Origin: a virus
DNA length: 21,086 bases
Strand: one strand, 5' to 3'
Virus record (IMG/VR): IMGVR_UViG_3300050821_006875
Location: 1-21,086 of that record
The notes below the pieces were generated by a model. That model saw nothing but the letters and a program-made list of their open reading frames with translations, did no database searches and was not told where the DNA came from. Of this stretch, positions 8,611 to 21,086 are shown piece after piece. The position numbers were made by a program, and so were the translations under genes. Position 1 is the stretch's first letter, and each line of letters opens with the position of its first letter.

Positions 8611-10128
8611 TCAGTAGCGCATTGCGAAGCGCTTCACGCGGCGCGGTGAGTGCGTTGCGATCCCGGTCGATGGGACGGACACGGCTGCGTTTTTTTTTAA
8701 GCGCGCGCGGGCGACCTTGCTGGTCTTGGCGCCCATGACATCGTTTGGATGACCAGCCGGCACAGGATTGCCGTCCTCATCTGCCCCGACTGGCGACGGC
8801 GGAGGGTTGAGTTCTTCCTTCTGCGCCGGCGTCAACGGGTCCATGCCAAGGTTTTCGCGCACCTCATCGGGCGTGACAACCGAGGTCTGAAGGTAGATCT
8901 GGTCGATCTGCGCCTGAGTCAGCTGGTCAAGCTCGGCGTCCTGCTGCCAGTCGAAGGTGAGGTCCGGACGCTTGAACCAGCGGGTGATGATCTGGTTCAT
9001 GAATCCAGTCACCCACTGCATGAGCGGCGCCAAGCCTTCCTCCAGCGCGACATCCTGGGCAGACTCGGCCGTGGCCCGGTTGACCTGCTTGATGAAGGCG
9101 TTGGGTGGCAGGCTGAAGGCATAACACACGACGCGCGCCAGCCACTCATCGTACTGGTCCATGAGCGCGCCTTCCTTCACATCGTAGGGCTTCATTCCCC
9201 CGGGTATGAAGCGCGCCTTGCGACGCTCGGCTGTGTTGCCGGCCAGCAGCGCATCGAAGTATTCCTGCATCTGGCGGATCTGATCCGGCTGCCAGTCCTC
9301 GGGCACTGCGATCATCAGGTTCGGCGCAGAGCCTTCCGTGTAGAACTGCAACTTGTCCAGCTGGCGTCGCAGCGCAATGTTGACCGTCATCACGATCTGC
9401 TCGACGGGAGACAGGCCGTAGAGCCGGTCCACCCGCGGGTTGCGCGGCATGTACAGCAGTTCATCGCGCGAGTAGTCCACCGCTGGCAGGCCCTTGATGA
9501 TCTGCTGATAAGCCGGGTCAGGAGCGATGGGCGTGCGACCGTCCAGGGACAGCAGCCGCTTGAACATCGCCCCGTCCATCAGGTCCAGCGAGTAGACACC
9601 CTGGCCGCGAGTCATCCGCGGATATACGGCCGGAGCGTCGATGACGAGCAGCTCCTCGAGCAGCATCCGAAGCCACGTCGACCAGTCGTGCTCGCGGTCC
9701 GGGAACGCCAGGAAATCGGTGATTTGCTGCACACCGGCATCAGGTGTCGCCTTCAGATCCTTCGGCTTGATCAGCCACTCCAGCCGGCCCATCTGGTCCT
9801 TGCGGGTCTCCACGGCCAGGCGCACCAGGTCGCAGGAATTGGCGAGGGAGCGCAACTGCCAGAAGCTGACGTTCTGGACGTTCTCATCCAGCCGCGGGAT
9901 ATAGCGGGTGTTGACCGCCGCGGGATAGTCGTAGGCACGGCCCTGCGCGTCGGCCTGCGCCTGCGGGACGAGCGGTTGGCTCGGGCCGAAGAACGTGTCA
10001 GGCGGCTTGCCGGTGAAGAGGTACCGCACGCCTTGCGTCAGGCGCGTCAGTACGCTCGCATCCAGCGGAATCTTGGTGGCATCAGGGCCCGGCATGGCAT
10101 CAGGTATCGAGGATGGGCCACTGACCAT
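8611..10128 (-). CDS. Phage portal protein
   Basis: The 505-residue frame encodes a portal protein, the dodecameric ring at the head vertex through which DNA passes. Typical segments are visible: LRSLANSCDLVRLAVETRKDQMG, the DYSRDELLYMPRNPRVDRLYGLSPVE region, and AFSLPPNAFIKQVNRATAES before a C-terminal helix region. The start at 10128 overlaps the previous gene by 29 bases; an alternative ATG at 10095 would lie five bases past that gene's stop. The last 26 residues after the A-run (NAAVSVPSTG...) look unlike family sequence, while the -1 frame continues into the Mu F protein. A shift would give a 734-residue portal-Mu F fusion. Confidence 0.85.
   Translation of the reverse strand: MVSGPSSIPDAMPGPDATKIPLDASVLTRLTQGVRYLFTGKPPDTFFGPSQPLVPQAQADAQGRAYDYPAAVNTRYIPRLDENVQNVSFWQLRSLANSCDLVRLAVETRKDQMGRLEWLIKPKDLKATPDAGVQQITDFLAFPDREHDWSTWLRMLLEELLVIDAPAVYPRMTRGQGVYSLDLMDGAMFKRLLSLDGRTPIAPDPAYQQIIKGLPAVDYSRDELLYMPRNPRVDRLYGLSPVEQIVMTVNIALRRQLDKLQFYTEGSAPNLMIAVPEDWQPDQIRQMQEYFDALLAGNTAERRKARFIPGGMKPYDVKEGALMDQYDEWLARVVCYAFSLPPNAFIKQVNRATAESAQDVALEEGLAPLMQWVTGFMNQIITRWFKRPDLTFDWQQDAELDQLTQAQIDQIYLQTSVVTPDEVRENLGMDPLTPAQKEELNPPPSPVGADEDGNPVPAGHPNDVMGAKTSKVARARLKKNAAVSVPSTGIATHSPRRVKRFAMRY
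8690..8698 (-). other. A9 slippery run, possible -1 frameshift site joining portal and Mu F
   Basis: On the coding (minus) strand the portal codons read TTA AAA AAA AAC. This contains the slippery heptamer A AAA AAA of the type used by bacterial -1 frameshifting. A -1 step here leaves the portal frame and enters the Mu F frame, which has no start codon of its own for the family-like N-terminal 40 residues. A homopolymer sequencing error would give the same picture. Confidence 0.5.
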
Positions 10129-10779: not shown

Positions 10780-12080
10780 GACGGTTGATGCTCCTGCGCC
10801 TGGCGCGCTTTCATGTCCTCCACGGCCTGGCGGGCGTACTGGAGGAATCCTGTGTTGGCGGTGCGGATCAGCGGCTGCAGGGCATACCGCACCGAATCCC
10901 AGCAATGGTTGTGCTTATCGACGATGTCCGTGAGGATCAGCGACGGATCGAGCTTGTCGACCTTGAAGCTGTACAGCAGCGCCTCATCGGCCGTGTGCAC
11001 GCAGCGCGGGTGAATGACCACCTGCTCGTAGCTTCGAATATGGGCGATGCCGTCCTCGACGCTACCCGTCCATTTCTCACACGGCACCATACGCGGATAA
11101 CCGTGCTGCACCAGGTCGCTGATGGTCTCGGGCCGCGCGTTGTCACCGCGGGTCTGGTACCTGCGAGCGTCCGGCACCGCATCGAATAGCTCCGGCAGCT
11201 TTCGCGTATCAACGCCAATGCCATACGCTTCGTGCTCGATGTAGAGCTTGCGTTCATGCACCCAGCAGCGAATCAGGACTGAGGGGTCTTGGCTGAATCC
11301 CCAATCTGCGCCCTGGTATGGTCCGTTCCACGTCTTCGGGTCAGGCGTGAACTCCGCGATGATGTACTTGCCCTTGAAGATCTGCGCGGCGCTGTTTTTG
11401 CGGAACTTGCCCTCCCACACGTGCTGGTAGGCGTCCACATCGACGCGGGCGAGGTAGTCCTTGTCCCGCTGCAGCTTCTCGGGGAACCACGGGTTGTCGC
11501 GCCAGTTCGTCTCGATGATCCTGGCGTGCGGCATCGGATTGACGATGAAGCGCTTGGAGGTCGGATCTGAGGCAAGGTCCGGATTGAAGCTGCACCAGAT
11601 CTCCGACCCAGCATTGCGCACCGTCGGGGTGATGGTAAGCCAGCTATTCTCGGTGACCTTCTCCCCTTCCTCGATCCACAGGATGTCGATGCCTTCTGTG
11701 GATTTGAACTTAGCCGGGTCAGTCTTGATGCCCGCGAAGAAGAACTCGCTGCCGTCGTAGGCGCGGATCTCCTGCTGCCCGATGTGGAAGTAGCGGCTGT
11801 ATCCCAGCTGCACGATCTGCCCGGCGACCGTCTGGTGCACCGATTCGCGGATCGAGGTCTGGTACTCGCGCGCGCAGGCAATGCGCAGCGGCCGCGGCTT
11901 TTTCCTGGCGGCCAGGATAACCGCCATACGTGCGAATCCCCAGCTCTTCAGGCCACCACGGCCACCGTGCATGACCTTGTAGTCTGAAGGGATCCAGTTA
12001 CCGCTCGCGTCGAAAAATAGGTCACGAACCTTCGGTGCCAGAGTCAGGCTTTGGCTGGGGGTCGACACCTGGGCCGCCAT
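10776..12080 (-). CDS. Terminase large subunit, PBSX/Terminase_3 type
   Basis: The 434-residue product is the packaging motor: an ATPase followed by a nuclease that cuts the DNA concatemer. The Walker A motif is GGRGGLKS at residues 39-46 and Walker B is ILWIEEGEK at about 133-141, with the acidic pair in place. Nuclease-domain acids are visible in GADWGFSQDPS (about 250), RGDNARPETI and HNHCWDSVRYAL. The length is normal for the family. It overlaps the small subunit gene by 59 bases, an arrangement common for terminase pairs. This is the best supported assignment in the window. Confidence 0.95.
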   Translation of the reverse strand: MAAQVSTPSQSLTLAPKVRDLFFDASGNWIPSDYKVMHGGRGGLKSWGFARMAVILAARKKPRPLRIACAREYQTSIRESVHQTVAGQIVQLGYSRYFHIGQQEIRAYDGSEFFFAGIKTDPAKFKSTEGIDILWIEEGEKVTENSWLTITPTVRNAGSEIWCSFNPDLASDPTSKRFIVNPMPHARIIETNWRDNPWFPEKLQRDKDYLARVDVDAYQHVWEGKFRKNSAAQIFKGKYIIAEFTPDPKTWNGPYQGADWGFSQDPSVLIRCWVHERKLYIEHEAYGIGVDTRKLPELFDAVPDARRYQTRGDNARPETISDLVQHGYPRMVPCEKWTGSVEDGIAHIRSYEQVVIHPRCVHTADEALLYSFKVDKLDPSLILTDIVDKHNHCWDSVRYALQPLIRTANTGFLQYARQAVEDMKARQAQEHQPS

Positions 12081-14788: not shown

Positions 14789-15669
14789 GAGGCCTGCCCC
14801 GTGACACGCTCGTACGCCGCGCGAAATCGCGCCTCCAGGTCCGCCTGAGTGAAGCGGTCCCGGTCTGCGATCAGCCTGCAGCCGTGCCCGAAGTCGCCAT
14901 CGCCGAGTGCTTCAATCGCCGCGAGCGCCATCTGGTCCTCCTGCAGCTGCTCACGCACATGCAGCCAGGTCAGGCGCTGGGGTGCCGGCAGTGTCCCTGT
15001 GGCAGCGACGTACTCGATGGGCGCCGTGACCGATCGCCATGCCTCCAGGCTCTGGTTGCGTTGAGCCCGTGGATTGGTCCCGAGCGCTCTGGGGTTGGTA
15101 CCCGTTGCCCGGGGGTTGGTCCCGTTCGCTTTGCGACCCCGCGGTAGCGGAGCATCAGCTCCTTCCACCGCGTCAGCGGTGGAAGGTGGGGAAGGTTCTT
15201 GATCCGATCCGATCCTTCCGATCCGATCCTTCCGATCCGATCCTTCCGATCCGATCCGATCCCCGACGACTCGTCGCTGATCGATCGACGACTGATCGTC
15301 GATAGCCTCTGCTTTTGCCCCGGGTGGCAGACCATGATCAGGCGGCGGGTAGGTGCTTTTCTTCGCTCGGTCTATTTTCTGGTGAGACCTCCATGACGGT
15401 AATTCGTAGAGTAATCCGTGGCTTGCGGTTTCATAGAGAATGATCAGCGCCTGCGCTGCAAGCTCGTCGAGCCATCGACGAACGTTCGACGACGTAACAT
15501 CGTCTCCACCGAAGATGGAGGCCTTGAGGCGACGCGGGTCGGCAGTGCCCCTGCCCTCGTCATCGGCCTGGGTAATCAGCCCTATGAACAGCAGCCTCGT
15601 CGAATGCTCGACGTTCATGATCTGGGGTGACATCCAGATCTCCGGCTTCAGTGATCTGATCCGAGCCAT
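14785..15669 (-). CDS. Phage replication initiator-like protein
   Basis: The 294-residue product opens with MARIRSLKPEIWMSPQIMNV and RLLFIGLITQADDEGRG, then GGDDVTSSNVRRWLDELAAQ. This is the N-terminal winged-helix type of phage replication proteins acting in lambda O-like or DnaT-like roles, which bind the origin or load the host helicase. The middle (about residues 130-225) is low-complexity and corresponds to two sets of DNA repeats. The C-terminal 80 residues form another helical domain (RLTWLHVREQLQEDQMALAAIEAL). In lambda the origin lies inside gene O; the same may hold here. Start at ATG 15669 overlaps the previous stop (TGATG). Confidence 0.7.
   Translation of the reverse strand: MARIRSLKPEIWMSPQIMNVEHSTRLLFIGLITQADDEGRGTADPRRLKASIFGGDDVTSSNVRRWLDELAAQALIILYETASHGLLYELPSWRSHQKIDRAKKSTYPPPDHGLPPGAKAEAIDDQSSIDQRRVVGDRIGSEGSDRKDRIGRIGSDQEPSPPSTADAVEGADAPLPRGRKANGTNPRATGTNPRALGTNPRAQRNQSLEAWRSVTAPIEYVAATGTLPAPQRLTWLHVREQLQEDQMALAAIEALGDGDFGHGCRLIADRDRFTQADLEARFRAAYERVTGQAS
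15061..15123 (-). repeat. Three 21-bp coding repeats (GTNPRA)
   Basis: Three in-frame tandem units of 21 bases encode GTNPRAT, GTNPRAL and GTNPRAQ in the linker of the replication protein. Each unit holds GG(G/T)ACCAA(C/T)CC. The length is a multiple of three, so the repeat may act in protein as a flexible basic linker, in DNA as part of the origin, or both. Confidence 0.6.
15201..15262. repeat. 14-bp iteron array, candidate replication origin
   Basis: Three exact tandem copies of a 14-bp unit, GATCCGATCCTTCC, occupy 15206-15247, with partial copies (GATCC multiples) before and after. The array lies inside the replication initiator gene. Because 14 is not a multiple of three, successive copies are translated in different frames, so the conservation is at DNA level. 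This resembles the origin iterons inside gene O of lambdoid phages. Confidence 0.6.
15264..15301. repeat. Two inverted repeats beside the iterons
   Basis: CGACGA-C-TCGTCG (15264-15276) and CGACGA-CTGA-TCGTCG (15286-15301) share the same arms and lie directly next to the iteron array. Such hairpins could be further initiator sites or a primer/assembly signal. Function inferred from position. Confidence 0.45.
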
Positions 15670-16002: not shown

Positions 16003-16272
16003 TCATGGTTTGCGCCCTCCGGCAGCTGCCGACGTCTTCCGCGAAGTTCCGTTGTCTACCGGCTCGTCTCCGAAGAGTTCCGGCTGCAATCCGTTGGCCT
16101 GCAGCTTGCGAGTGGCTACCGTATAGGCATGTTGCTTTGCTTTGGCCCAAGCCTTGAGCACGTCGCGGACGATCACCGTCTTGTCGTGGCCGGTCGACGC
16201 CGCCTCAATCTCAAGCCACACATCGACCGATTCAGGGATCGAGGTGCGACAGTCTTTCAGCGGCAGACTCAT
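16003..16272 (-). CDS. Ribbon-helix-helix-like protein after the Cro-like gene
   Basis: An 89-residue product from ATG 16272, overlapping the preceding stop as ATGA. The first half has a strand-helix-helix pattern (CRTSIPESVDVWLEIEAAST, then KTVIVRDVLKAWAKAKQ) like small ribbon-helix-helix DNA-binding proteins. The second half (PELFGDEPVDNG to basic AAAGGRKP) is probably disordered. As second gene of the left operon it takes the place of a lambda CII-like or early regulator. The fold is inferred by eye. Confidence 0.5.
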   Translation of the reverse strand: MSLPLKDCRTSIPESVDVWLEIEAASTGHDKTVIVRDVLKAWAKAKQHAYTVATRKLQANGLQPELFGDEPVDNGTSRKTSAAAGGRKP

Positions 16273-16475
16273 GCTGCTGACGTGCCGTCTGCCGCGCTTT
16301 CGCGGTACCGATGCAGCTCCGCCAGCTGTTCAATGGTCGGATTGTCGATTTCTCCGCGCCGGAATTTGGAAAGCCACGACCTATTGAGCGTCGTGGTCCT
16401 CTCTATCTCCGCCAAATTGATCGCCTCGGAGTTCAGAAAGTCACGCAGCTCATCGCGCATTGCTAAAGGGTCCAT
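16269..16475 (-). CDS. Cro-like HTH regulator, first gene of left operon
   Basis: The frame is open to a TTG at 16511, but the better start is ATG 16475 (68 residues), since the longer form would place operator 16486-16503 inside the gene and neither has a clear ribosome site. The protein holds a helix-turn-helix: MRDELRDFLNSEAINLAEIE, TTTLNRSWLSKFRRGEIDNP, TIEQLAELHRY. Its gene is divergent from the repressor gene, and two operators lie between them, as with cro and cI. It likely represses the repressor gene and tunes the early promoters during lytic growth. Confidence 0.65.
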   Translation of the reverse strand: MDPLAMRDELRDFLNSEAINLAEIERTTTLNRSWLSKFRRGEIDNPTIEQLAELHRYRESAADGTSAA

Positions 16476-16485
16476 TTGTGCGATC

Positions 16486-16503
16486 TGAGCATAATTATGC
16501 TCA
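16486..16503. promoter_or_regulatory. Operator O1, perfect 18-bp palindrome
   Basis: TGAGCATAATTATGCTCA is its own reverse complement. It lies 11 bases before the likely ATG of the Cro-like gene. The half-site TGAGCA recurs in four other places near phage promoters, which marks it as a repressor site. Confidence 0.75.
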
Positions 16504-16530
16504 AAGGACAAGCCGGTTAGACCGGAACAG

Positions 16531-16548
16531 TGCGCAAAATAGTGCTCA
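16531..16548. promoter_or_regulatory. Operator O2
   Basis: TGCGCA-AAATAG-TGCTCA matches the TGAGCA-N6-TGCTCA form at 11 of 12 half-site bases. It is 23 bases before the GTG of the repressor gene, in the divergent control region. Confidence 0.65.
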
Positions 16549-16570
16549 AGCTCTGCCGTACGCTAAGTTC

Positions 16571-16927
16571 GTGGCGAAACGCAGACCCCCAACGCAGCAA
16601 AGCATCCGGGCCAATCTGGCGCAGCTAATGCAGATTGCCGGCTGGTCGCAACGCGAGCTCTCGACGAAGAGCGGCGTTTCCCAGCGCCAGGTCTCCAACA
16701 TCCTAACTGGCGCGACTTCTTGTTCCATAGAAACGGCAGCTGATCTGGCACGCGCTTTCGGCCTTACTAACTGGCACTTGCTCATGCCTGGCCTATCGAA
16801 GGACCTGCTGACTTCTCCGTCCCTCGAGCGCCTGGTGCGGGCTTATGTCGAGGCGCCACAGTCAGTGCGCGACTATCTCGACACCATTGCTGATCGCGAA
16901 CTCAAGGCGCCGTCTCCGAAGGGGTAG
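16571..16927 (+). CDS. HTH-XRE repressor, CI-like
   Basis: A 118-residue product from GTG 16571; the frame is open to 16460, but the earlier part overlaps the Cro-like gene and both operators, so the GTG is the better start though its ribosome site is weak. Residues of about 14 to 65 are a classical helix-turn-helix (LAQLMQIAGWSQRELSTKSG, VSQRQVSNILTGATSCSIET, AADLARAFGL). The C-terminal 45 residues are too short for an S24 autocleavage domain, so induction cannot be by LexA-type self-cleavage. It probably binds the five TGAGCA-N6-TGCTCA sites and keeps both operons silent in the lysogen. Confidence 0.75.
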   Translation: MAKRRPPTQQSIRANLAQLMQIAGWSQRELSTKSGVSQRQVSNILTGATSCSIETAADLARAFGLTNWHLLMPGLSKDLLTSPSLERLVRAYVEAPQSVRDYLDTIADRELKAPSPKG

Positions 16928-16975: not shown

Positions 16976-17353
16976 ATGCGAAACGGAATACTTCTGGCCG
17001 CCATCGCGGCTGTTGCGATTTCAGGCTGCGCCACGGCGCCATCAGCGGATGAGGAGGCCAGGGCTGATTATGGCGAGATGCCCACGGACTTCCAGACTCC
17101 GATCAAGGCATATCTGGATCAGAATCTTAAAGACCCAGCGTCTGTGCAGCTTCGCAACTGGACCATACCGGTGAAGAGCTGGATCAGGGATGCGCCGATC
17201 GCCGGGCGCGCGCTGCATTTCGGTTGGGTGGTCAACGTCGATGTAAATGCCAAGAACTCGTATGGCGGCTATAGGGGCTTCCAGACCTACCAATTCATGC
17301 TCCACGGCAACATGATCGTGAATGAGGTCACGCCACAGGATCTGGTCAACTGA
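16976..17353 (+). CDS. Lipoprotein, candidate lysogenic-conversion factor
   Basis: The 125-residue product starts at ATG 16976 behind AAGGAGGGG, one of the strongest ribosome sites in the window. It has a signal peptide and lipobox ending in AISGC (Cys19), so the mature form is lipid-anchored. The mature part contains IKAYLDQNLKDPASVQLRNW, then ALHFGWVVNVDVNAKNSYGG, a small domain found in secreted bacterial lipoproteins. It lies directly after the repressor and before the rightward operators, so it is likely made in the lysogen. The place fits a superinfection-exclusion or other host-conversion protein. Export is well supported; function is inference. Confidence 0.65.
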   Translation: MRNGILLAAIAAVAISGCATAPSADEEARADYGEMPTDFQTPIKAYLDQNLKDPASVQLRNWTIPVKSWIRDAPIAGRALHFGWVVNVDVNAKNSYGGYRGFQTYQFMLHGNMIVNEVTPQDLVN

Positions 17354-17437: not shown

Positions 17438-17455
17438 TGAGCAATTTTATGCTTG
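17438..17455. promoter_or_regulatory. Operator O4
   Basis: TGAGCA-ATTTTA-TGCTTG has a perfect left half and four of six bases in the right half. It overlaps the start of the -35 box at 17453-17458. Confidence 0.6.
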
Positions 17456-17481
17456 ACATGTCGGCCCGGGTTGAGCACTAT
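17453..17481 (+). promoter_or_regulatory. Early rightward promoter
   Basis: A consensus -35 TTGACA (17453-17458) is followed after 17 bases by CACTAT (17476-17481), a moderate -10. The -35 overlaps O4 and the -10 overlaps O5, so repressor binding would block RNA polymerase. The first gene of the early operon starts at 17508. Confidence 0.65.
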
Positions 17482-17489
17482 TCTGCTCA
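17472..17489. promoter_or_regulatory. Operator O5, perfect half-sites
   Basis: TGAGCA-CTATTC-TGCTCA has both half-sites perfect. It covers the -10 box of the early promoter and ends 18 bases before the first gene of the operon. Confidence 0.75.
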
Positions 17490-17507: not shown

Positions 17508-17996
17508 ATGTCACGCATTGCCGCTTCTTCGACCAAGCCCAGTCTCGCTGCATCCGCCGACCGCCTGATCAAAGTCAGCGCCGACGGGCAGCTGCTCCCG
17601 CATGACGCGCCGGAATGGGAAGGTATCTACCTTCCTGCCGCCTCGCTCATCGTCGCGCGCCGGCTGACGGCGAAGGCCCTGGGCTTCAAGGCGGCGAACG
17701 CTGCCTGCACAAAGATTGACCTATGTGGCGCGCCCGGCGAGCGCTCAATCTCGCTGCGCGAGTTCGTCAACCACCTCCTCGAGGACGACCGCACGGGCCC
17801 GGCGATCGATGCCGCCTTCTTCACGATTGACGATCCGTACCAGTGGATCTGGACCTGCGATGAGTGCGCCCCCTCGGGCTGCGCGTGGTACGTCGACCTC
17901 GGCGGCGGCTATTCGGGCCGCGGCAGCCAGGGCAATCGCGCTCGCGCTCTGGCGGTCCGCTCCGGTCAGTTCTCGGGCTTTGGGGAAGCGGCATGA
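17508..17996 (+). CDS. DUF1566-type variable protein 1 (DGR target)
   Basis: The 162-residue product starts at ATG 17508 with GGGAGG seven bases upstream and is the first gene after the early promoter. It is a paralogue of the protein at 20666: DRLIKVSADGQLLPHDA matches LTKIGVDGAELPDDA, PAIDAAFF matches PALDPVFF, and both then read WIWT. The C-terminus is the C-type-lectin-like DUF1566 (Lcl) end, SGCAWYVDLGGG to ALAVRSG. Nine residues (Y128, D130, G132, Y135, S140, Q141, N143, A145, R146) differ from the paralogue while the rest of this segment is identical. No signal peptide is visible, so it is probably cytoplasmic. Variable proteins of DGRs use this fold for ligand binding. It ends with GFGEAA and overlaps the next gene (ATGA). 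Confidence 0.8.
   Translation: MSRIAASSTKPSLAASADRLIKVSADGQLLPHDAPEWEGIYLPAASLIVARRLTAKALGFKAANAACTKIDLCGAPGERSISLREFVNHLLEDDRTGPAIDAAFFTIDDPYQWIWTCDECAPSGCAWYVDLGGGYSGRGSQGNRARALAVRSGQFSGFGEAA
17871..17964 (+). other. DGR variable repeat, copy 1 (VR1)
   Basis: Aligned without gaps to 20993-21086, 80 of 94 bases agree. The 14 differences fall in nine codons and only in codon positions one and two: TAC/GGC, GAC/CTC, GGC/GAC, TAT/GAT, AGC/GAC, CAG/CGG, AAT/TTT, GCT/TAT, CGC/CTC. All are explained by adenines in an unseen template (mostly AAC or AAT codons). Just upstream the two genes differ by a six-base gap and by ordinary changes, so the tract has a sharp left edge at about 17871. Confidence 0.8.
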
Positions 17997-18373
17997 GCGC
18001 CAAGGCCGTGACGAATTATCACCTGCTGGTCGCGCGCATCGCCGATGGATTCACGCCCGGCGACCTGGTGCGCGCCGATGATCTGCCGGAGCTCACGGCC
18101 TCTGACCTGGACCTCATCGGAAACGAGGAGGACAGCCTCGCCGCTGATGCCATTGCGGATGCCGCCTATTACACCGGCATCCTGAACTCTGGCGCCACTG
18201 AGGAAGCGCAGCTCGCCGCGATCGGTCGCAATCTGCGCGACCGGCTCATCAATGTGTGCCGAGTGTGGCTGGCGGGTGATGTAACGACGGAGCTCTACAA
18301 CCGCACCGAGCCGGGTGACTGGCGTGCAAAGGCCGCTGATGAGGCTGGCATCGCACTGGAGGGGCCGCTATGA
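17993..18373 (+). CDS. Hypothetical early protein
   Basis: A 126-residue product from ATG 17993, overlapping the previous stop (ATGA); the frame is open further back to 17864 but that part is antisense-free shadow of the variable repeat. It is acidic and helical: NYHLLVARIADGFTPGDLVR, EDSLAADAIADAAYYTGIL, LRDRLINVCRVWLAGDVTTE. No motif or family is recognised. It is coupled to both neighbours in the early operon. Confidence 0.65.
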   Translation: MSAKAVTNYHLLVARIADGFTPGDLVRADDLPELTASDLDLIGNEEDSLAADAIADAAYYTGILNSGATEEAQLAAIGRNLRDRLINVCRVWLAGDVTTELYNRTEPGDWRAKAADEAGIALEGPL

Positions 18374-18582
18374 GCGTCCTCACCAATGCGCGCCCCCAGG
18401 TTGAGCGCGCCGTGAATGAGGCGATGGGCTCACTCACGCGGCGCACATACTTCACTGAGCGCCAAGCAAATCTTATCCGCGAGAGCCTGCACTTCATCTA
18501 CCTGACCGGCGCTATCGAGGCCGTCAAGGCGGTGCGGGCCGAGGTGGCTACGCAGCGGCCAGCGCGAAGGCAGGCTCTGTGA
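18370..18582 (+). CDS. Small hypothetical early protein
   Basis: A 70-residue product whose ATG overlaps the previous stop (ATGA). It is basic and helical (RRTYFTERQANLIRESLHFI, AIEAVKAVRAEVATQRPARR). Its size and charge suggest a nucleic-acid or protein partner, but no family is recognised. Confidence 0.55.
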   Translation: MSVLTNARPQVERAVNEAMGSLTRRTYFTERQANLIRESLHFIYLTGAIEAVKAVRAEVATQRPARRQAL

Positions 18583-18863
18583 TGCGCGCCGCCATCATCG
18601 CACTTGCGCTTTCGCTCAGCGGTTGCGCCGTCGCGCCGGACAAGCTCATCGGGGGTATCGATCACACCTCCCACATCCTGCAGCACTTCGAGCACGAGGG
18701 CGACGGTGGGAACGAGGGCTGCACCGGCCCGATGCTCGGGCTGCGCTGGGAGGGCCCGCATTACTACGTGCAGGCGTCCGATATGTACTGCACTCAGGGA
18801 CGTATTGATTTGCAGCGGGAGGTTGCAAACCTGCAGGCCGGCGTCTCGGTGGATCTCAAATGA
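18579..18863 (+). CDS. Small predicted lipoprotein in the early operon
   Basis: The start is GTG 18579 (overlapping the previous stop as GTGA) or the next codon, ATG 18582. The N-terminus MRAAIIALALSLSGC is a short signal peptide with a lipobox (LSGC), so the protein is probably lipid-anchored. The mature part has two Cys (NEGCTGP and DMYCTQG) and a helix at the end (REVANLQAGVSV). An exported protein in an early operon suggests host-surface alteration or exclusion. Function unknown. Confidence 0.55.
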   Translation: MMRAAIIALALSLSGCAVAPDKLIGGIDHTSHILQHFEHEGDGGNEGCTGPMLGLRWEGPHYYVQASDMYCTQGRIDLQREVANLQAGVSVDLK

Positions 18864-19024
18864 GCTGGACCGCTTGCCTGATCTGGGCCTGCCTCGGCGG
18901 CATTGCCATCTGGGGGCTGGTGGAGATCTGCACCGCCATTCCGCAGCGCAGGCCGAAAAACCAACGGGTAGCGGGAGTGCTCAATAAGCCCTCGCCTGAC
19001 TGTGAACGGAGGTATGTGCCTTGA
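18860..19024 (+). CDS. Very small membrane protein
   Basis: A 54-residue product from ATG 18860, overlapping the lipoprotein stop (ATGA); its stop overlaps the TTG of the exonuclease gene. Residues 3 to 26 form a hydrophobic segment rich in Trp, Cys and Gly (WTACLIWACLGGIAIWGLVE), followed by a basic tail (PQRRPKNQR). Together with the lipoprotein before it, it forms a pair of envelope proteins. Function unknown. Confidence 0.5.
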   Translation: MSWTACLIWACLGGIAIWGLVEICTAIPQRRPKNQRVAGVLNKPSPDCERRYVP

Positions 19025-19872
19025 ACGGATCGCTCCAGTCGCGCGTCCCCTACGCCGACTATCTGAAACTGCCTGGGCTTTCAATCTCGCGTCTGAAGGA
19101 AATGAAGCGCTCACCGCAGCACTGCGAATACTTCATGACCCATCCGCGACAGTCTGCGCCGTTGACGCTGGGCACCGCAGTTCACTGCAAAGTGCTGGAG
19201 CCTGAGCGCTTCGCCGGCTCCTACCGCATCTGGGAGCGTCGCACCGAGAGCGGCCGCGTCGGTCCGCGCAGCGGAAAGCTGTGGGATGCCTTCGAGGCAG
19301 AGGCCTTGGCGGCGCGCTGCGAAGTGCTCACCATCGATGAAGCCGACACCGCGCAGGCCATTGCGGATGCCGTGCGCAGCAACACCGCTGCCGCACCCTA
19401 TCTGGAGGCCGGCGACCCCGAAGTGACCCTACAGTGGGATATGCAGGGACGCGCCTGCCGCGGTCGAGTGGACTGGCTCACCTTCATCCGCAGCCAGCCG
19501 GTGCTGGTGGGATTGAAGTCCTCGCGCGACTGCCGTCCTTTCTACTTCGGCAAGCAGGCGGCGCAACTGGAATACCCGCAGCAGTGGGCCTGGTATTTCA
19601 ACGGCTACCACTCCATCACCGGCAAGCGGCCGAAGATGGTGGAGATCGTCGTGGAATCTGCGCCCCCGTATGCGGTCGCTGTGTACGTCATCCCGGACGA
19701 CATCATTCTGCAGGGCGAGGAGGAGTACATGAAGCTCCTCGAGCAGTACGCGGAATGCGAGCGCACCGGTCAGTGGCCAGGGCCCGTGCCGCAGGAAACC
19801 GAACTCACGCTGCCCACCTGGTACTACGGGCCCGTCGATGATGTGTCGGACCTGGGCCTTGTCGCGGCATAG
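19021..19872 (+). CDS. RecE-like PD-(D/E)XK exonuclease (DUF3799), changed active site
   Basis: The 283-residue product starts at TTG 19021, with GGAGG nine bases upstream. It follows the phage RecE/exonuclease VIII-like family: SISRLKEMKRSPQHC, then GTAVHCKVLEPERF (about 51-64), the first active-site Asp in GRVDWL (D151) and the closing QxxxY motif in QQWAWY. Such enzymes chew 5' ends to make single strands for annealing. The family's second acid (usually DLK) is Gly here: VGLKSS, with G164 and K166. This could disable catalysis, unless it is a sequencing error or another residue compensates. It leads the recombination part of the early operon. Confidence 0.8.
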   Translation: MNGSLQSRVPYADYLKLPGLSISRLKEMKRSPQHCEYFMTHPRQSAPLTLGTAVHCKVLEPERFAGSYRIWERRTESGRVGPRSGKLWDAFEAEALAARCEVLTIDEADTAQAIADAVRSNTAAAPYLEAGDPEVTLQWDMQGRACRGRVDWLTFIRSQPVLVGLKSSRDCRPFYFGKQAAQLEYPQQWAWYFNGYHSITGKRPKMVEIVVESAPPYAVAVYVIPDDIILQGEEEYMKLLEQYAECERTGQWPGPVPQETELTLPTWYYGPVDDVSDLGLVAA

Positions 19873-19881
19873 GACAACACC

Positions 19882-20529
19882 ATGAACGACAAACAAGCCA
19901 AAGTGTTACCCGTGCCCGTTGACTGGGATGAACTGTATCCGGGGCGGTTCCTGAAAGCCGGGGAATTCAAGGGCCAGAAAGTCACCTTGCGCATCGCCTC
20001 CGTGCGCATTGAGGAACTCATCGGTGACAAGGGCCCACAGGTCAAGGGCGTCATCGCCTTCGAGCAGACGGAAAAGCAGTGGGCGCTGAACAAGACCAAT
20101 GGCTTCTGCCTGCGCGAAATGTTCGGCCGCAAGGTGCAGGAGTGGGTCGGCAAGCGCGTCACTCTCTTCGCCGGCATGTGGGACGGCGAGGAGTGCATCC
20201 GGGTATGGGGATCACCAGACATTGCCAACGACATGGAGGTAACGGTCGCGCTGCCTCGCAAGCGGCCATTCAAGATGCCCATGCACAAGATGTTGCCCAA
20301 GGGAGCGGCCCAGGTCGCCACCCCTAAGGCAGAATCTGGCGATGGCAGCGCGACGGTGCCGAGCATATCCGAAGCGCTCGCCAAAGTGCGAGAGGCGAAG
20401 ACTCTCGACTCCCTGGCCTCGGCGCGCAAGACGATCTGGGGCCTATACGCCGCCGCGCGCGAAGAGGTTCCGATCGATATTGAGGCGGCGGCCAATTATC
20501 GACGCGAAGAGCTGGAAGCGCAGCTGTGA
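19882..20529 (+). CDS. Exonuclease-associated phage protein, possible DNA-binding partner
   Basis: The 215-residue product starts ten bases after the exonuclease. It opens with a beta-rich domain (GQKVTLRIASVRIEELIGDK, KVQEWVGKRVTLFAGMWDGE, CIRVWGSPDI) that could be an OB-like fold, then a linker, then a helical C-terminus (SEALAKVREAKTLDSLASAR). Proteins of this layout are common next to phage exonucleases. A single-strand-binding or annealing partner is likely but not shown. No catalytic residues are apparent. Confidence 0.65.
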   Translation: MNDKQAKVLPVPVDWDELYPGRFLKAGEFKGQKVTLRIASVRIEELIGDKGPQVKGVIAFEQTEKQWALNKTNGFCLREMFGRKVQEWVGKRVTLFAGMWDGEECIRVWGSPDIANDMEVTVALPRKRPFKMPMHKMLPKGAAQVATPKAESGDGSATVPSISEALAKVREAKTLDSLASARKTIWGLYAAAREEVPIDIEAAANYRREELEAQL

Positions 20530-20678
20530 GCGATCCACGCTCACCTGGCCGCAGGTCTGGCCCGTATCTGCCACCAGACGACGACTATTTACTCTGGCTC
20601 GAGGGCGGCATCGACCGTGAGGCAGAGATCGAAGCGGACCTGGCCGATTCAATACCGGAGAACTCATGTACAAACTGA
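20526..20678 (+). CDS. Small acidic hypothetical protein
   Basis: A 50-residue product from GTG 20526, overlapping the previous stop (GTGA). It starts Pro/Arg-rich (SDPRSPGRRSGP) and then turns acidic (DDDYLLWLEGGIDREAEIEA). Its end overlaps the start of the second variable protein by 13 bases, which supports coupling. No family recognised. Confidence 0.45.
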   Translation: MSDPRSPGRRSGPYLPPDDDYLLWLEGGIDREAEIEADLADSIPENSCTN

Positions 20679-21086
20679 CCAAGATCGGCGTCGACGGCGC
20701 CGAGCTGCCCGATGATGCCGACGGCCATGAGGTTGTGCGCGTGGAGCGCGACCTGCTCGCGCGGCCGCTATTCGTGACCGCGGCGATCGCCACTGAGTCG
20801 ATGACCTGGAAGCAAGCCAAAAAGTGGGCTGAGAATCTCACGATCTATGGCTGGTCCTGGCGGCTGCCCACGGTCGAGGAGGCCTTCATGATCCCCGATC
20901 GGCAGCGCACCGAGGATCCAGCGCTGGATCCGGTTTTCTTTCCGCACAATGACGGCCGCTGGATCTGGACTTCCACTGAGGACGCACAAGTGCCCTCGGG
21001 CTGCGCGTGGGGCGTCCTCCTCGACGGCGGCGATTCGGGCCGCGGCGACCGGGGCTTTCGCTATCTCGCTCTGGCGGTCCGCTCCG
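20666..21086 (+). CDS. DUF1566-type variable protein 2 (DGR target), truncated by window edge
   Basis: The frame starts at ATG 20666 with CCGGAG five bases upstream and is cut by the window edge after 140 codons. It shows the complete DUF1566 pattern: LTKIGVDGAELPDD, MTWKQAKKWAENL, GWSWRLPTVEEAF, RWIWTSTEDAQVPSGCAW and ALAVRSG. It is paralogous to the protein at 17508, which has lost the Trp-rich RLPT motif and two codons near the variable repeat. Variable residues are G116, L118, D120, D123, D128, R129, F131, Y133 and L134. As the more canonical copy, and the one nearest the expected template and reverse transcriptase, it is the likelier principal target. Confidence 0.8.
   Translation, partial: MYKLTKIGVDGAELPDDADGHEVVRVERDLLARPLFVTAAIATESMTWKQAKKWAENLTIYGWSWRLPTVEEAFMIPDRQRTEDPALDPVFFPHNDGRWIWTSTEDAQVPSGCAWGVLLDGGDSGRGDRGFRYLALAVRS
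20993..21086 (+). other. DGR variable repeat, copy 2 (VR2), cut by window edge
   Basis: The partner of the segment at 17871-17964, with identity at all codon third positions and 14 differences at positions one and two of nine codons. At five of these 14 positions neither copy has A (for example T/G and G/C pairs), so both copies were changed independently from a common template base, as in adenine mutagenesis. The 3' end of the repeat lies beyond the window. Confidence 0.8.

Follow-up and report, generated by a model that had tools for sequence, protein, structure and literature searches.

Repeats of a predicted diversity-generating retroelement in two lectin-like genes of a temperate tailed phage

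Introduction

A diversity-generating retroelement (DGR) rewrites genes by error-prone copying of a template, the errors arising wherever the template has an A. In Bordetella phage BPP-1 the DGR has the arrangement mtd-avd-TR-brt, and the order of target, Avd, template repeat (TR) and reverse transcriptase (RT) is shared with the relatives of the locus described here, as are the A-specific changes and a C-type lectin target with a variable repeat (VR) at its 3′ end; the BPP-1 brt product is a detectable homologue, with 32% identity, of the RT of one of these relatives (L003). The DGR of Stenotrophomonas sp. SKA14 has several DUF1566 targets, two TRs and six VRs, and in the same survey 28.6% of DGRs carried more than one VR, in most cases alongside a single TR (PMC6642488). 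The nd4 and nd12 tentaclins represent phage DGRs with two targets and a different topology, one with a 5′ VR (PMC10743442). In structural group 3 of DiGReF, the TR overlaps an end of an RT open reading frame (ORF) (PMC3521204).

We analyzed an entire virus record of 21,086 nt, hereafter the window, whose two target genes carry variable repeats that almost certainly belong to one DGR of a temperate tailed phage. Unlike BPP-1, in which the target is Mtd, this phage and its relatives have Lcl_C/DUF1566 targets, two or three of them, located in what looks like an early operon rather than by the tail genes, and in the relatives the TR lies within the RT frame. The several DUF1566 targets resemble those of SKA14; however, one TR was found per relative, as opposed to two in SKA14. 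As in nd4 and nd12 there are two targets in the phage, but here they are paralogues and both have 3′ VRs. The close relatives of the window resemble DiGReF group 3 in that the TR occupies the 5′ part of the RT ORF, and differ from it in that the TR is wholly enclosed and is conserved in that position across the clade. It is thus a known kind of system, and what is unusual is that small proteins of apparently early, repressor-controlled genes are diversified and not an obvious tail fibre.

Results and Discussion

The window contains two direct repeats, VR1 and VR2 (Table 1), which make up its longest direct repeat by a wide margin; there was no third copy in the 21,086 nt. The repeats lie in frame with the ORFs of target genes 1 and 2, the second of which is open at the contig end, and are identical, ungapped, at 80 of 94 bases. 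The 14 differences (repeat positions 19, 20, 25, 26, 32, 40, 55, 56, 59, 64, 65, 70, 71, and 74) are spread over nine codons, and all of them fall at codon position 1 or 2; this recount was identical to the figures in the initial annotation, which had also reported third-position changes and a six-base gap between the genes just upstream. Comparison of the target genes confirmed both, as upstream of the repeats they differ by a two-codon gap and the third position accounts for 63 of 156 differences (40%); relative to the L003 orthologues, the third-position share upstream of the repeats was 56–61%. Based on these upstream shares (40% and 56–61%, respectively), the probability of finding no third-position change among 14 differences ranged from ~7e-4 to 2e-6, and under equal shares it was 3e-3.

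Table 1. Coordinates of repeats, genes and operator-like sites in the window
Feature	Coordinates	Strand	Remarks
Regulator gene	16269..16511	-	Weak transcriptional-regulator match, phrog_8 E=0.003
Operator-like palindrome	16486..16503	+	At divergent regulator genes
Operator-like palindrome, 1 mismatch	16531..16548	+	At HTH gene start
HTH (Cro/CI type) regulator gene	16544..16927	+	HTH_3 E=2.7e-11; start codon tentative, ORF open from 16460
Weaker operator-like site, 2 mismatches	17438..17455	+	Upstream of target gene 1; alone not above chance
Operator-like palindrome TGAGCA-N6-TGCTCA	17472..17489	+	Upstream of target gene 1
Target protein 1, 162 aa	17508..17996	+	Weak Lcl_C/DUF1566 match, PF07603 E=3.5e-4
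VR1 (variable repeat 1)	17871..17964	+	3′ end of target gene 1
VR-type 3′ boundary (IMH-like)	17962..17969	+	Sequence CCGGTCAG
Recombination exonuclease (exonuclease VIII-like, DUF3799)	19021..19872	+	Between target genes 1 and 2
Early protein, phrog_21613 (function not known)	19882..20529	+	Same operon as targets
Target protein 2, 140 aa visible, 3′ end absent	20666..21086	+	Lcl_C, PF07603 E=1.8e-14
VR2 (variable repeat 2)	20993..21086	+	Truncated by contig end

No TR, RT or avd gene was visible in the window, whose contig stops inside the repeat, at its last base. An exact pattern search of viral contigs for the window repeat gave no match; a relaxed pattern recovered relatives, and a protein search with target 2 retrieved L003, a 10.4-kb contig. 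L003 is syntenic with the window, carrying orthologues of target 1 (74% amino acid identity) and target 2 (71%), beyond which come another target (the third), an Avd-like gene, a TR rich in A and an RT of the DGR type. The RT matched phrog_1423 (E=7e-105) and has the motifs QLDIANFFPSL, IGNLSSQ, and YVDD; the Avd matched bAvd, the PHROG family “Avd protein of DGR” (phrog_3206, E=2e-10) and, below the cut-off of that model, the NCBIfam family DivGenRetAVD (E=1.6e-7). All 41 core mismatches between the L003 TR and its three VRs (13+14+14) lie on an A of the TR. The order targets-Avd-TR-RT was conserved among the relatives, most of those checked being complete; L097 and L099–L104 have one to three targets and then Avd-TR-RT. 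In L104, genes for RecT, exonuclease, targets, Avd, TR, RT, and integrase follow in one row, and the L100 contig ends in a serine integrase. To the picture drawn in the initial annotation the relatives add an Avd gene, often a third target, and, in the close ones, a TR enclosed by the start of the RT frame. From this synteny we infer that TR and RT lie to the right of position 21086, together with Avd and perhaps a third target.

With the L003 TR as reference, 13 of the 14 window differences sit on an A (hypergeometric p=2e-9); at the 14th, L003 has C and the window copies have A and G. Outside the A sites VR1 and VR2 share five bases that differ from the L003 TR (positions 4, 45, 66, 78, and 91), the pattern to be expected if both were copied from a single phage-specific template. 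These findings support the DGR interpretation of the initial annotation, L003 having the kind of template and RT that it predicted. Its suggestion of one template with codons such as AAC or AAT fits with respect to a common template, but the templates of the relatives also contain GAC, CAC, and CAG. The targets are paralogues, with ~40% amino acid identity upstream of the repeats, and one might ask whether they are ordinary paralogues modified by diversifying selection or gene conversion without a retroelement; with every difference avoiding the third position, with 13 of them on the A of a foreign template, and with DGR machinery and A-only changes in the relatives, we find this scarcely credible.

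The 3′ ends of VR and TR could be distinguished in 12 related cassettes, where, counting only VRs with a complete, in-register end, the VR ends in GTCAG and the TR in GTGAG. VR1 of the window has the VR-type end, GTCAG within CCGGTCAG; the end of VR2 is cut off, the contig stopping two bases short of where the VR and TR begin to differ. L096 likewise stops (position 11106) only a few bases away from the end of a VR. DGR repeats thus seem to break assemblies, and breaks at VR ends in these two contigs are a likely sign of further repeat copies beyond them. Contig ends in repeats can mix copies, and the end of the window could in that case be a chimera of reads from other copies; however, VR2 has residues of its own at nine codons, and the gene it belongs to corresponds in position and gene order to its orthologue at L003 7660–8091, which makes such an artefact very unlikely.

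Comparison of near-identical relatives showed recent change confined to a VR in one pair, L019 and L020: over the 12,363 bp common to the two there are 14 differences, every one of them in one VR at template A. A similar change is suggested for L094 and L095, both close to the window in the target genes; the 6,842 bp that they have in common contain 37 differences, of which 14 are in one VR (L094 9547–9598), and all 14 are at codon position 1 or 2. L094 and L095, and also L098, have kept their targets and lack the TR and most of the RT, a small unrelated gene being found in their place (L094 10160–10662; L095; L098 11017–11622). As there are two different junctions among these three, at least two losses of TR and RT must have occurred. 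The VR differences between L094 and L095, despite the missing sequences, could have arisen by an RT acting in trans or by recombination with an intact relative. The proteins of the replacement genes share the motif YGGRGI...C.RW..F..FLADMGE.P.G..LDR and are similar to L003 1897–2457; that of L094 had no Pfam match.

The existence of such depleted cassettes raises the possibility that the window repeats are relics, made by a DGR that has since died in this phage by deletion or replacement of TR and RT. Against this stand the complete cassettes in most relatives checked and the break exactly in the repeat, similar to that in L096, which suggests more copies past VR2; we therefore consider a dead cassette improbable.

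The initial annotation had named C-type-lectin-like proteins, DUF1566 among them, as the kind of protein that DGRs change, and the Lcl_C match and predicted fold of target 2 agree with this. Target 2 scored 54.5 bits with PF07603 (Lcl_C, formerly DUF1566), above the curated cut-off of 34.9, whereas target 1 scored 21.3, below it; 31 of 32 proteins of the target family had an Lcl_C match. An AlphaFold2 model of target 2 (mean pLDDT 91) has a C-type lectin fold, and its best match among solved structures was the C-terminal domain of Legionella Lcl (Foldseek E=1.4e-3; VIA-align Z 11.6, rmsd 3.1, 114 aligned). The repeat accordingly sits at the 3′ terminus of a gene for a predicted C-type lectin. 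Across the target family, invariant residues in the VR columns (A114, V117, G122, and A137) alternate with highly variable ones. Searching named phages by tblastn with target 2, and the PDB by sequence with the target-family profile, gave no match.

In L003 the TR (9123–9290) is wholly enclosed in the RT ORF, at its 5′ end, and the equivalents in L004–L007 and L097–L104 are placed in the same way. The RT frame in close relatives starts mostly in overlap with the avd stop codon (ATGA) and then reads through the TR; no ATG, GTG, or TTG occurs between the TR and the RT domain in any of them but L006. In the L005 TR the frame differs from the VR frame and is still open. In the RT alignment an N-terminal MT and one Y are invariant, which could also reflect constraint on the RNA, and in a model of the L100 RT residues 1–56, encoded by the TR region, had pLDDT <50. 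A TR in the RT ORF is not in itself new, as overlap with RT ORF ends is covered by DiGReF group 3 (PMC3521204). We tentatively propose, as somewhat less than an even chance, that in a clade of temperate phages the DGR diversifies two or three small, early, repressor-controlled lectin-like proteins that are not tail fibres, and that the RT is translated through its own TR, which would then also specify an N-terminal tail of the enzyme that looks disordered.

Diversification in the window phage would proceed as follows. The TR, past the contig end and inside the 5′ end of an RT gene downstream of avd, would be transcribed, and RT together with Avd would produce cDNA with random bases opposite template A. 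This cDNA would then replace the 3′ end of the target genes, with the shared sequence ending in CCGGTCAG as a probable anchor. Only chosen residues of the lectin domain would change, because A occupies codon positions 1 and 2 (AAC, AAT, GAC, CAC, and CAG), and AAY template codons would be unable to mutate to stops. The products would be small ligand-binding proteins, and their variable ligand would most probably be found on the surface of the host.

In the window the - strand carries the structural and replication genes (protease, portal, terminase, and replication initiation). The + strand carries the targets together with the exonuclease VIII-like gene, downstream of divergent regulators. 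The palindrome TGAGCA-N6-TGCTCA sits at these regulators and 19–36 bases before target gene 1, and the window has three sites with <=1 mismatch (shuffles averaged 0.07, and 0 of 100 had three). L003 has another palindrome, GTTAACA-NN-TGTTAAC, in the same two places (5762, 6245, and 6269); both palindromes were first spotted in these same sequences, and the site counts are to be read as post hoc. From this arrangement the targets look as if they belong to a repressor-controlled early operon resembling that of lambda pL. Scanning the operon gave no sigma-70 promoters. Hairpins after the VR are known for BPP-1; here, there were none after the VRs beyond those in shuffled controls. Two short genes, 16976–17353 and 18579–18863, flank target gene 1 and have, by eye, lipoprotein-type signal sequences (SGC-A).

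The location of the target genes bears on the role of the proteins, which may be adhesins of the virion or may bind their ligands inside the cell early in infection. Their position among the recombination genes of a putative early operon, downstream of repressor-type operators and away from the structural genes, would be consistent with action inside the host cell, in early takeover or in sensing or blocking host defence, and no signal peptide or membrane segment was seen in them by eye. On the other hand, phage DGR targets of known role are virion proteins (PMC8144416), and a protein transcribed early may still enter the virion. An intracellular role, which is compatible with the DGR interpretation, seems to us possible but rather less than probable. 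These phages add a DGR family whose diversified proteins are encoded alongside early genes for recombination and integration, with operators of the repressor type in front, and they raise the question of what a phage gains from varying proteins encoded apart from its tail. One relative, L030, is a prophage of the cultured bacterium Rhodanobacter sp. B04, and this host makes the question testable. As a minor observation elsewhere in the window, tandem 14-base repeats (TCCGATCCGATCCT) are present at 15203–15257, within the replication initiation gene.
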